Origin: a virus
Direction: 5' to 3' (one strand)
Virus record (IMG/VR): IMGVR_UViG_3300020183_000344
Coordinates: 1-29,468 of that record
Length of the DNA: 29,468 bases
The notes under the pieces were generated by a model. That model was not told where the DNA came from. It saw only the letters and a list, made by a program, of their open reading frames with translations, and searched no databases. The translations under genes and the position numbers were made by a program. Position 1 is the first letter of the stretch. Each line of letters opens with the position of its first letter. Below, piece after piece: positions 1,218-4,370 of the stretch.

Positions 1218-2639
1218 CTACGCGGTGTACGGATTCTCTCGCGTCCTGCCGGTGTCCACAAAGTCATCCTCATCCCAGTCGTCACGAGGAGGAGGATCGA
1301 CTTCCAGCCAGCCAGCATCACGGAGCCACCTCAAGGCTTGCGTACAGGCGTCAACCATGTCGTCGTTTGAGCTTTCAGGGAAGCTACAGATCTGACTGAC
1401 GAACGGCTCGGCCCAGTCTTTTACATATCCCTTTCTTCGATCTGACTCAGGAATCCACACCCTCCCGCGGGCGATGATGTGGGAGACGATGTTCAGCCGC
1501 TGGATCTTGTCCGCCTTGCCGGGGTTATAGGCAGCGACAGGAAGGTGTGCTCTCCGAAGATCCTGAATCAGCGAGATGCCTGCGGATTTGTCTTCCACGA
1601 GGATTGTGTCTACTCGCTTCTTGTCTTTCCCCTCTCCGAAGATCACCTCGTACTCTTCCTGAACCTTTTCTCGTAGTTCAGGGTACTGGAGTCGGTCTTG
1701 CCAGCAGTCGATCAGCATCACGCTCATCGGGCCGTCTGTAGGCTTGAAGACGCCCCACGTCTCCGAAGCGGTAGGGTCGTTGACGGTCTTCTCAGACGTT
1801 GCACAGTCGTAGCTCTGCACGATGTACTCGAACCGCGGGAACTCCTTGCCAGCAGGCCATAGGCGGAACCAGTCCCTTCTGACCATGCCACCGTCTTCGG
1901 GGTCGATGATCTCGGCGTAGATCTCTTGCCTGCCTAGCTTCGTGCCTTCGTACTGGAGGATCTGCTTCCTGAAGCTCTCGGAAAGGTTCGCAAGGTTGCT
2001 GTAGGTCGAGGCGGTGCTGACCTTGACATCATCGCCATCACGCCCGACTAGCTCGATGATCAGGTCTTTTGGTCTCGGGGTTGTAGTACATATCAGCCGG
2101 GTCGGCATATTCGGGATCTTCAACCGCAGCCCGAACTGCATCTGATCCCACGCTTCTTGCAAGTAGTCCCACGCCGCAAGTTCATCCGTCCATCCGCCAT
2201 GAAATTGTGGGCCGCGGAACCGATCAGGCTCGCTCGCAGGGATGCCTTTGATCAAACTACCGTTGACTAGCTTCAGTTCGTGCAAAGCCTTGTTGTAGTC
2301 GGCAACCAACTGGAAAGGGATGACTGACAGCAGGCCGCTGTCCCCCTCGAAGCACGTTGCCCGAACGTCAGAGGACGTAGGAGCCGCCACCAACCACCGG
2401 GTGTTGGGATACGTCCACGCCCACCAACCAATCTGCTCTGCTGCGGTTCTTGTCTTCCCGGCCCCCCTGCCTGCCAACATCAGCCAGATCGACCACCAAT
2501 CACCCGCGGGGAGGATCTGATGCTTGTGGGCTTGTGACAGCCACTTAACTCTCCATGCGAACGCTACTTGATCATGAGGAGCTAGCCGCTCGAACTCACT
2601 GCGGGTCTTGGGATCCCGCAGAATCTCTAAAACGTCCAT
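1218..2639 (-). CDS. terL: Terminase large subunit (TerL)
   Basis: ATP-driven packaging motor and nuclease, 473 aa, a normal length for the family. The ATPase domain has Walker A AGRGAGKT at residues 56-63, Walker B HGGWTDEL near 147-154 with the catalytic Asp-Glu, and a motif III-like CTTTPRP near 188. The C-terminal RNase H-like nuclease has the first acidic residue in QSYDCATSEK, a second region around LVEDKSAG, and the closing acidic motif NDDMVDACTQAL near 440. It lies directly downstream of TerS. The ATG at 2639 is the only possible start because an in-frame TGA sits 6 codons upstream, yet no good ribosome binding site precedes it. Assignment is secure. Confidence 0.97.
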   Translation of the reverse strand: MDVLEILRDPKTRSEFERLAPHDQVAFAWRVKWLSQAHKHQILPAGDWWSIWLMLAGRGAGKTRTAAEQIGWWAWTYPNTRWLVAAPTSSDVRATCFEGDSGLLSVIPFQLVADYNKALHELKLVNGSLIKGIPASEPDRFRGPQFHGGWTDELAAWDYLQEAWDQMQFGLRLKIPNMPTRLICTTTPRPKDLIIELVGRDGDDVKVSTASTYSNLANLSESFRKQILQYEGTKLGRQEIYAEIIDPEDGGMVRRDWFRLWPAGKEFPRFEYIVQSYDCATSEKTVNDPTASETWGVFKPTDGPMSVMLIDCWQDRLQYPELREKVQEEYEVIFGEGKDKKRVDTILVEDKSAGISLIQDLRRAHLPVAAYNPGKADKIQRLNIVSHIIARGRVWIPESDRRKGYVKDWAEPFVSQICSFPESSNDDMVDACTQALRWLRDAGWLEVDPPPRDDWDEDDFVDTGRTRENPYTA

Positions 2640-2712: not shown

Positions 2713-3258
2713 TCATTCGACCTGACGTTTAGATTCAAGATTCTGGAGCACGGCATCGAACAGCAGTTTGGACTCCACTTGAATGGGAGGAGCGTTGTCT
2801 GCGCCGGTCAGGGCCATCCGATCTCCAAACCGTTTTGGATCCCACTTGGCTAGCAGCTTCAGTCTGGTCTCGATTTGGAGCTTGCGGTGACCCAACATAT
2901 CCTCAACGGTTGTCGAGGTTCCCTGATCGGACATCGTTTGTTTCTGGCCGAACTGCGGGGTATCTGCAATCAGCAAGCATTCCTCTGCGATTGCTTCGTA
3001 TCCTTGCTCTCTAGCTCGCGCGATGGCTCTGGAAAGACCTACACCTTCCTCTCCTAGCGCATCATCTCGATACATCCAATCGTAGATGGTTTGCCAAGCG
3101 GGCATATGATCATCGCGGCATATTTGTCTGAGAGGCTCTCCGTTGCTTAAACGCTGGCAGATCTCAGTTGCGATGTCAGGATTGTATTTCGAGGGGCGTC
3201 CGGTCTTTTGAGGTTCTGCTAGACCTCTCAATTTTTTCGGGGTTTCTGCCTTGGGCAT
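2713..3258 (-). CDS. terS: Terminase small subunit (TerS)
   Basis: A 181-aa protein that should recognise phage DNA and load TerL. The N-terminal region, about residues 18-65, is a helix-turn-helix of the terminase small-subunit type (GRPSKYNPDIATEICQRL, then SNGEPLRQIC and MPAWQTIYDWMYRD). It is followed by the helical part with RAIAREQGYEA-type spacing and a C-terminal tail. I chose the ATG at 3258 (MPKAETP) over the one 7 codons upstream because GGAGAGG sits 5 bases before it. It lies just upstream of TerL, separated by a 73-base gap. A candidate promoter lies 28 bases upstream. Confidence 0.9.
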   Translation of the reverse strand: MPKAETPKKLRGLAEPQKTGRPSKYNPDIATEICQRLSNGEPLRQICRDDHMPAWQTIYDWMYRDDALGEEGVGLSRAIARAREQGYEAIAEECLLIADTPQFGQKQTMSDQGTSTTVEDMLGHRKLQIETRLKLLAKWDPKRFGDRMALTGADNAPPIQVESKLLFDAVLQNLESKRQVE

Positions 3259-3285
3259 ATTCCTCTCCGTTGATTTCATTCGGAA

Positions 3286-3314: not shown

Positions 3315-3397
3315 GGGTGGAAGCCCGGACTGGATTCCTTCCCTCTCCCGCCTTCTATGTCCCTGCATAGATGCCAGAGTACCTTTGAGGCTGCGAG

Positions 3398-3517
3398 TCA
3401 TCGATAAGGGGCTTGTCCCACCCATGTACCCCGAACCTTTTGCGGTCGCTCACAGACACGCCGCGCGGCTTGCTGGCGGGTGTAGGCCCAGCCGGTGTTT
3501 TCTCCCTCGCAGCCCAT
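3398..3517 (-). CDS. Possible 39-aa protein
   Basis: A short frame starting at ATG 3517 and ending at TGA 3398, encoding a small basic protein (MGCEGENTGWAYTRQQAARR at the start). It lies in the gap between the 91-aa gene and the terminase promoter. The ribosome binding site is weak (AAGAG, 5 bases away). No similarity is recognised. It could equally be noncoding; the rest of 3280-3572 shows no other gene. Confidence 0.25.
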   Translation of the reverse strand: MGCEGENTGWAYTRQQAARRVCERPQKVRGTWVGQAPYR

Positions 3518-3549
3518 TCAAGCTCTTACTGTCGTGAGGGGTACGTCCG

Positions 3550-3571
3550 GCTACCCGCCGGAAGGGGTAGC
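3550..3571 (-). other. Hairpin immediately after a stop codon
   Basis: Perfect 7-bp stem GCTACCC/GGGTAGC with an 8-base loop, starting one base after the TAA of the 91-aa gene. No U-run follows, so it is not a standard intrinsic terminator. It may protect the 3' end or mark RNA processing. Confidence 0.4.
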
Positions 3572-3572
3572 T

Positions 3573-3848
3573 TTACTTCATTGCCTCATCAACTGGCTTA
3601 CCTTGCTCAATGCCGACGCGATGCTTGATCTCTACAGCATAGTAAGTGAAATCCAGATGCCCGTGACTGATTGCATTAGCAGCGTACTCGCGGCATTTAT
3701 CAATCGCGCTATCTAGGGTTTCATGCAGGAATTTAAACTTAGCGGAGTGTCCTGACGGAGATCTCAAAAACACTGCAAATTTTGGATCCGTCGCTCTGTG
3801 CAGTTGCTGCACAGCTTTCTTTCTTGATCTGTAAAAACCGCCGTCCAT
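3573..3848 (-). CDS. Hypothetical protein, 91 aa
   Basis: The ATG at 3848 is preceded by AGAGAGG at 6 bases, so I take it over a longer frame to 3878. The protein is basic at its start (MDGGFYRSRKKAVQQLHR). It then has a mixed alpha/beta character with a pattern of a short modification- or substrate-binding-like fold (KFAVFLRSPSGHSAKFKFLH), but no domain I can name. It is the first gene after the branched terminator-like element at 3885-3975 and the last before the terminase genes. Function unknown. Confidence 0.65.
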   Translation of the reverse strand: MDGGFYRSRKKAVQQLHRATDPKFAVFLRSPSGHSAKFKFLHETLDSAIDKCREYAANAISHGHLDFTYYAVEIKHRVGIEQGKPVDEAMK

Positions 3849-3884
3849 ACGCGCCTCTCTCGACAATAAGGCGTACAACGGTCG

Positions 3885-3975
3885 AAAAAAAACCTTCTAG
3901 ATTGACCCCGGTCGAGGATCCAAGGGTTTCTTGGATTGCCCCAAACGGGGCCGGGATCATACTAGAAGGTTCTTC
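3885..3975 (-). terminator. Branched RNA structure ending in a U-run (terminator or antiterminator)
   Basis: Read on the minus strand, a 10-bp stem AACCTTCTAG/CTAGAAGGTT closes the element. A 2x2 internal loop follows, then a second 9-bp stem TGATCCCGG/CCGGGGTCA. Inside it are two hairpins, CCCC-GTTT-GGGG and ATCCAAG-AAACC-CTTGGAT. The outer stem runs into eight T residues (3892-3885). One pair in the second stem is U-G on the minus strand but would be a C-A mismatch on the plus strand, so the minus transcript is the folding molecule. An intrinsic terminator is the simplest reading. The branch is much more elaborate than usual and could be a put-like antitermination site or a stable small RNA. 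Confidence 0.7.
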
Positions 3976-4088
3976 GCGGGCCTCGACGCCAACGACTCTA
4001 TTTTGCTTCCGATAATTTTGTTTGTCAACTGAGGTTGGTGGCCGGTGCTGATCCCCGGCTTCTGGCGCAGATCTAAAACGGTTGCCAT
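3957..4088 (-). CDS. Possible 43-aa basic protein
   Basis: A frame from ATG 4088 to TGA 3957, beginning MATVLDLRQKPGISTGHQPQ and ending in a basic tail (SRPAKNLLV). The start overlaps an upstream TGA as TGATG, the joint used elsewhere in this operon. The ribosome binding site is poor. The last codons and stop lie inside the 5' arm of the branched terminator. Composition looks protein-like but I do not recognise it. Confidence 0.4.
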   Translation of the reverse strand: MATVLDLRQKPGISTGHQPQLTNKIIGSKIESLASRPAKNLLV

Positions 4089-4198
4089 CACCGCTGCTCG
4101 CGTGTTGTCAGGATGCGAATCATGACGACGCTAGATCCACCGTGCATCAGCCTGCATTTCACCAACACGGCTGGGGACTGGAAGGAAGGGGACAAGGC
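4089..4198. other. No supported gene
   Basis: A G+C-rich stretch of about 110 bases. The only minus-strand frame, which ends at the TGATG joint with the 43-aa gene, lacks a ribosome binding site. I see no structure or repeat in it. Confidence 0.4.
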
Positions 4199-4354
4199 TT
4201 AGTAATCCTTACCCGACCGCGCACTGATAGCGTAATCTCGCTCCATGCCTATGCGCCAATCCCCATGCGTGTTGATGCCGGTCTTTCCCGGCTGTCCGCC
4301 GACTCCCGCCCGAGGAGACACTGCACAGGAGGCGTATCGGCTGCGGGTGTTCAA
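4199..4354 (-). CDS. Possible 51-aa protein with TTG start
   Basis: A frame from TTG 4354 to TAA 4199. GGGAGG lies 4 bases before the TTG, a strong but close ribosome binding site. The protein is Gly/Arg-rich and hydrophilic (AGVGGQPGKTGINTHGDW then IGMERDYAISARSGKDY). The Gly-rich run and its fit with the operon suggest real coding, perhaps the remnant of a longer gene, since the frame is also open upstream of the TTG. No function can be given. Confidence 0.35.
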   Translation of the reverse strand: MNTRSRYASCAVSPRAGVGGQPGKTGINTHGDWRIGMERDYAISARSGKDY

Positions 4355-4370
4355 ACCACCTCCCGCTGGG

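Follow-up and report, generated by a model that had tools for sequence, protein, structure and literature searches.

A kissing-helix leader RNA with a terminal U-run recurs in uncultured phage genomes

Positions 3885-3975 of the window, a whole virus contig of 29,468 bases, are the core of a larger, undescribed RNA family, here called element B, that is known from well over 100 contigs of uncultured phages, most of them environmental. It is near certain that the structure of element B is real. Its function can be proposed more tentatively, and the reading that we favour, while giving it slightly less than an even chance, is that element B is a promoter-proximal terminator gate that acts in cis and heads a phage transcription unit. 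For this reading we infer termination at the U-run, a regulated read-through, and an agent that brings about the read-through.

The original prediction for this stretch was a compact, branched four-helix RNA, and its parts were all recovered: a perfect outer stem of 10 bp, a second stem of 9 bp with a U-G pair, two hairpins, and a terminal run of eight U (Table 1). In the window fold, the last G of the second stem is also used by the first hairpin, P3. The minus transcript had been proposed as the one that folds, and this held. The MFE of 3975-3885 (-) is -49.1 kcal/mol, compared to -24.5 +/- 3.2 kcal/mol for shuffled sequences (z -7.65, 0 of 200 as good), whereas the fold of the plus strand is weaker (z -5.41), and the covariance model gives 70 bits on the minus strand versus 18 bits on the plus strand, thus the minus transcript is the right reading. 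The branched layout is found in the window and in one relative (L027), which also has the second apical hairpin, but it is not a trait of the family, since most relatives have a single apical hairpin. Three features had not been part of the prediction: an upstream promoter, a 5' hairpin (P0), and the complementarity between the P0 loop and a bulge of the long stem. In the window, these two 7-nt stretches are perfect complements, with base 3911 shared with P2, and together they form what we call the kissing helix.

Table 1. Features of the window around element B
Feature	Position	Strand	Evidence and remarks
terL	1218-2639	-	PF03237 1.9e-19
terS	2713-3279	-	PF20901 2.5e-29, phrog_1482; small terminase subunit, Sf6-type; first late gene behind the leader
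Element C, second conserved structured RNA	3361-3551	-	C pattern, covarying fold in relatives
101-codon ORF	3573-3878	-	separates B from C in the window phage
Element B leader RNA, about 110 nt, U-run end	3885-3994	-	R1 69.8 bits, E 7e-13
Sigma-70-like promoter	4028-4000	-	motif match; TTGACA (4028-4023), 17-nt spacer, CAAAAT (4005-4000)
5' hairpin P0, CGUUGG / CCCGCG	3994-3975	-	covariation; one U-C mismatch in the window phage
P0 loop GUCGAGG, 7 nt, 5' side of kissing helix	3987-3981	-	complementarity and covariation
Outer stem P1, perfect, 10 bp	3971-3962 with 3900-3891	-	fold and covariation; 3' side runs into the U-run
Second stem P2, 9 bp, one U-G pair	3959-3951 with 3911-3903	-	fold and covariation
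Hairpin P3, 5 bp, GCCCC-GUUU-GGGGC	3951-3938	-	fold and covariation; common to the family
Second apical hairpin, 7 bp, AUCCAAG-AAACC-CUUGGAU	3936-3918	-	local elaboration
Bulge CCUCGAC, 7 nt, 3' side of kissing helix	3917-3911	-	complementarity and covariation
U-run, 8 U, foot of P1	3892-3885	-	intrinsic-terminator hallmark

The first homologues were found through relatives of terS, upstream of this gene (L003, L004, L027, L052, L056 and L069) and, unexpectedly, downstream of terL (L014, L021 and L070). Using a B pattern and a covariance model built from 10 sequences (R1), element B was detected in at least 120 viral contigs, and 99 of the first 100 contigs had a sense-strand R1 match at E < 1e-5 among the matches listed. 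A second pattern, derived from element C alone, gave 62 contigs, 54 of which carry B upstream as judged by R1. One C-pattern contig (L084) is identical to the window, and two (L214 and L221) contain strongly diverged versions of B with 9-nt loop-bulge complements. Another strongly diverged, B-like element with a promoter, to which R1 is blind, lies at positions 143-229 of L062, 4.8 kb upstream of terS, where it heads a row of small genes. Positions 7286-7378 of L076, behind terL, may be a distant variant of B, with a 16-bp stem, a U-run, a promoter and a possible kissing pair of 6 nt. A first search pattern based on the outer stem alone was rejected, since it matched unrelated, fold-less sequence in L082/L083.

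Judged by these and the following searches, element B has no entry in Rfam and is nearly missing from records of cultured phages. Rfam 15, applied at gathering score to the window and 14 relatives, gave no family at B or C, and below threshold only chance matches (the best, sau-19, at 21.9 bits versus the 80 needed). No description of element B was found in the literature searched, the journal coverage of which is incomplete. Among annotated phages, DNA matches (blastn with B and C of L106) were limited to two uncultured Manatee Spring records, one of which was examined with the covariance model and confirmed. The B and C regions of L069, L169 and L245 matched nothing among annotated phages, that of L285, which holds the Hydrogenophaga copy, matched nothing among plasmids, and element B was not found in BPP-1, Amjad_SA or HK022. 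Pattern matches in genome contigs were mostly chance, with 3 of 50 confirmed by R1. These three point to the hosts and come from Hydrogenophaga sp. NFH-34, from a Comamonadaceae MAG and from a MAG of a beta-proteobacterium. Element B occurs in 1 of 401 Comamonadaceae genomes, which suggests that it belongs mainly to virulent phages.

Compensatory changes in homologues, set as the check on the original prediction, are abundant across 80 relatives. In the alignment of these nonredundant sequences, which are under 85% identical (A5), the named structure is 94.3% paired, 32 of its 35 pairs have changed on both sides, and its covariation score is 0.608 versus 0.205 after shuffling (0 of 500 as good). 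For P1 and P2 together, 99.5% is paired and 16 of 18 pairs covary by changes on both sides, and for P0 these values are 89.7% of the cells and 3 of 4 pairs. The kissing helix is 91.5% paired, compared to 67.8% in shuffles, all 7 of its pairs covary (score 0.598 versus 0.161 shuffled, 0 of 500), and a shift of the helix by 1-3 columns destroys it. Since this helix was left out of the aligning model, the alignment is not biased towards it. The raw sequences gave the same picture, with an exact loop-bulge complement of at least 7 nt in 71 of the 80 own pairs versus 7 of 80 when loops and bulges were swapped. The kissing nucleotides thus vary freely while their pairing is kept, and conservation outside the helices is limited to the U-run and a 2 x 2 internal loop. 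The 5' strand can also be paired with sequence past the U-run, perfectly so in L004 and L027, but this turned out not to be general (mean 8.5 versus 7.7 swapped) and was discarded. These results support the suggestion that this is unlike a normal terminator hairpin, and point to a functional, transcribed minus-strand RNA that goes beyond an ordinary terminator.

The signals around element B suggest where this RNA begins and ends. The promoter motif of the window, which is identical or nearly identical in L003, L004 and L027, lies just upstream of B, and therefore the RNA is predicted to start at about position 3994. A sigma-70 match of at least 8/12 was found just upstream of B in 60 of 76 relatives, compared to about 10% in shuffles, and in 51 of these 60 the -10 element ends 7-8 nt ahead of a conserved TTG, so that the RNA should begin at the foot of the 5' hairpin. 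At the other end, 71 of the 76 relatives have at least 6 U in 8 nt at the foot of P1, and a U-run is present in all 21 nonredundant relatives that were found through C only, a search in which the U-run was not used. A stable stem that runs directly into a U-run has the sequence form of an intrinsic terminator, and termination activity is predicted on this ground. A further intrinsic terminator lies just upstream in 14 of the 76 relatives (0 in shuffles), overlapping the promoter of B, whereas a simple terminator 20-450 nt downstream of B was found in only 1 of 76, which indicates that B opens a new transcription unit. In about 20 of 23 late-gene contexts, the stretch that separates B from terS, terL, the portal or the capsid gene scores no better for a promoter than shuffles do, whereas B's own promoter scores 7-12 of 12. 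With no intervening promoter beyond chance, transcription of most downstream genes seems to require that polymerase gets past B.

The position at the border between the early and terminase genes, as originally described, is correct for the window. Upstream of B, on the same strand, are genes for a primosomal/O-like protein and a DnaB-like helicase, and terS and terL follow downstream. The structural genes lie at the opposite end of the contig, on the same strand as B. The window genome is probably circular or permuted, in which case element B would head the whole late region. As a rule for the family this position does not hold, since B also occurs between terS and terL, ahead of a gene of portal size, between the genes for a T7-type scaffold protein (PF05396) and the major capsid protein, ahead of RecE/RecT-like genes, and within sets of replication genes, beside divergent Erf/exonuclease genes. 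Long contigs with a match contain one sense-strand copy in 30 of 31 cases, at operons that differ per phage, and two copies in one case (G014). No tRNA or tmRNA was found. Upstream of B, window positions 4034-4370 (-), about 340 nt without a convincing gene, have 81% identity to sequence that in L005 lies immediately upstream of terS, where L005 lacks B and C, and this may be another RNA of the same leader region.

In most relatives, B is followed closely by element C, roughly 200-250 nt long, at a spacing of 23-32 nt in 46 of the 54 C-pattern contigs with B. The ORF that separates the two in the window has no family match and is missing between B and C in most relatives. In the fold of C, 17 of 23 predicted pairs covary in relatives, no terminator of its own was found, and several apparently unrelated types of C occur behind the same B. 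In our reading, C of L156 and L296 seems to end in a ribosome-binding site and a start codon. Behind C and ahead of the capsid gene, L136 and L106 have a further TTGACA-type promoter followed by a conserved stretch (ACAACCGYAAGGCC...) that looks like a third structured RNA. Also of note is a type II hammerhead ribozyme in another phage contig (L115, 7942-8003, minus strand), which scores above the Rfam gathering score.

The cis gate is proposed because polymerase has to get past this leader, which has a U-run terminator at about +110. Host RNA polymerase would start at the adjacent sigma-70 promoter, and the first 20 nt of the RNA would fold into the 5' hairpin. The long stem would form next, its bulge being clamped by the loop of the first hairpin, and the polymerase would then meet the U-run about 110 nt from the start. 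By default, it would pause or terminate there and release a compact RNA of roughly 110 nt. Passage would need a modified polymerase, the modification being due either to a factor, of phage or host origin, or to the folded RNA, the latter in the manner of HK022 put. Such a polymerase would proceed through C to the genes of the operon: terS and terL in the window, and probably the other late genes. The analysis shows several parts of this scheme: where the promoter lies, how the RNA folds, that loop and bulge pair, that the U-run is conserved, that C is linked to B, and that late genes are usually preceded by no further promoter or terminator. Two points argue against it. Neither a Q family protein (PF06530 or PF03589, in 31 records) nor, outside 4 of 76 leaders, a mutually exclusive antiterminator fold was found that might open the gate. 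Furthermore, nearly every long contig with a match (30 of 31) has a single B, at different operons, whereas a dedicated gate would be expected at every operon or at a fixed place.

This last observation is also the strongest point for the main rival, which we regard as possible but the less likely of the two: that element B is a stand-alone, moron-like small RNA gene, self-contained with promoter, an RNA of about 110 nt and terminator, and acting in trans on a host or phage target, while other promoters or late read-through would supply the genes downstream. Nearly every copy indeed has its own promoter and U-run terminator, and the terminators just upstream, in 14 of 76 relatives, would suit such a gene. 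However, the linkage to C and the lack of other promoters weigh most against it, since the near-constant spacing to a C without terminator, mostly without an intervening promoter, implies that transcripts must pass B. Moreover, hardly any unpaired stretch is conserved in sequence, and therefore a seed for pairing with mRNA is missing; no conserved unpaired region for antisense pairing was found outside the helices.

An RNA-only processive antiterminator similar to HK022 put, in which folded B rides the polymerase past terminators including its own U-run, is unlikely, although it would explain several properties. Element B lies directly behind a promoter, has two hairpin domains and a conserved three-dimensional contact, and heads operons, including early ones before recE/recT and replication genes. 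In addition, none of the 31 records examined, which may be incomplete, encodes a known antiterminator protein of the Q families PF06530 and PF03589. The original prediction had suggested a put-like antiterminator as one possibility, but membership in put is not supported: R1 found nothing in the HK022 genome up to E = 1, and thus no homology, and B has a U-run end and a loop-bulge pseudoknot that are not described for put. A U-run at the foot of a stem is a hallmark of termination, and there is only one copy per genome.

A terminator-embedded riboswitch, in which a ligand stabilises the kissing helix and thereby opens or closes the terminator, is highly improbable. The HMP-PP and guanidine-IV riboswitches combine the same parts, with a hairpin and a pseudoknot or kissing contact in addition to a U-run terminator, but in B the kissing helix is compatible with P1, and an upstream competitor for P1 was found in only 4 of 76 leaders. 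Since most leaders thus lack a competing antiterminator fold, a classical attenuator or riboswitch is unlikely. The kissing nucleotides are moreover free to vary as long as they pair, and the downstream genes share no common pathway. Finally, a plain strong terminator, or a hairpin acting at the DNA level in recombination or replication, would account for the strong stem with its U-run and the varying genome positions, but is contradicted by the covariation of the kissing helix, and also by the covarying 5' hairpin, the fixed promoter distance, the frequent G-U pairs and the strand asymmetry, and has a negligible chance of being right.

To return to the gate, a broader and rather doubtful extension is that B and C form a widespread, unrecognised phage RNA of two modules, in which a gate clamped by the kissing helix is joined to large structured RNAs of exchangeable type, and which would control host RNA polymerase without any phage protein and move as a cassette from operon to operon. 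Known phage RNAs that act on RNA polymerase from a leader are very few. If B gates transcription, it would be a compact new RNA-based terminator switch and would explain how phages lacking Q and N proteins could time their operons; if B acts in trans, it would be among the more widely spread phage small RNAs. The kissing helix is a precise tertiary contact, open to disruption and rescue by paired mutations.

Among known systems, element B is best read as resembling the lambda pR'-tR' region or HK022 put, while being a member of neither. The lambda leader transcribed from pR' to tR' is 6S RNA. Promoter, short leader, terminator and late genes follow each other in lambda as they do in the window and in relatives with a late context, but this layout is not the rule in relatives with early genes. 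The Pistol ribozyme has similar parts, but with the pseudoknot strand on the opposite side of the hairpin, and B is probably not of this class. In lambda, Q binds DNA in the promoter (PMC6606751), whereas in B the conserved part is an RNA fold, and no Q family was found in the 31 records. HK022 put, about 70 nt long, consists of two stem-loops behind the two early promoters and acts on RNA polymerase in cis; neither a U-run foot nor a kissing helix is part of its description (PMC9378689). Its activity consists of binding to the beta' zinc-binding domain and suppression of termination. Like B, it is a leader RNA of phages with two stem-loop domains and lies at an operon start or close to it, the action in cis on polymerase being only proposed for B, which differs in its length of about 110 nt, its U-run end, its kissing helix, and its presence at both early and late operons. 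IsrK of prophage Gifsy-1 exists as a short terminated form and, through terminator read-through, as an mRNA leader (PMC4825925). As described, this resembles the terminated and leader forms proposed for B, but IsrK is a base-pairing RNA of a single prophage locus, whereas B is a structured RNA family of wide distribution in which unpaired stretches are hardly conserved. The HMP-PP (thiS) and guanidine-IV riboswitches likewise have a pseudoknot or kissing contact within an intrinsic terminator with a U-run, but they use ligand-driven, mutually exclusive folds to control one pathway (PMC6478431; PMC11611296), whereas B has neither such folds (4 of 76) nor a single pathway.
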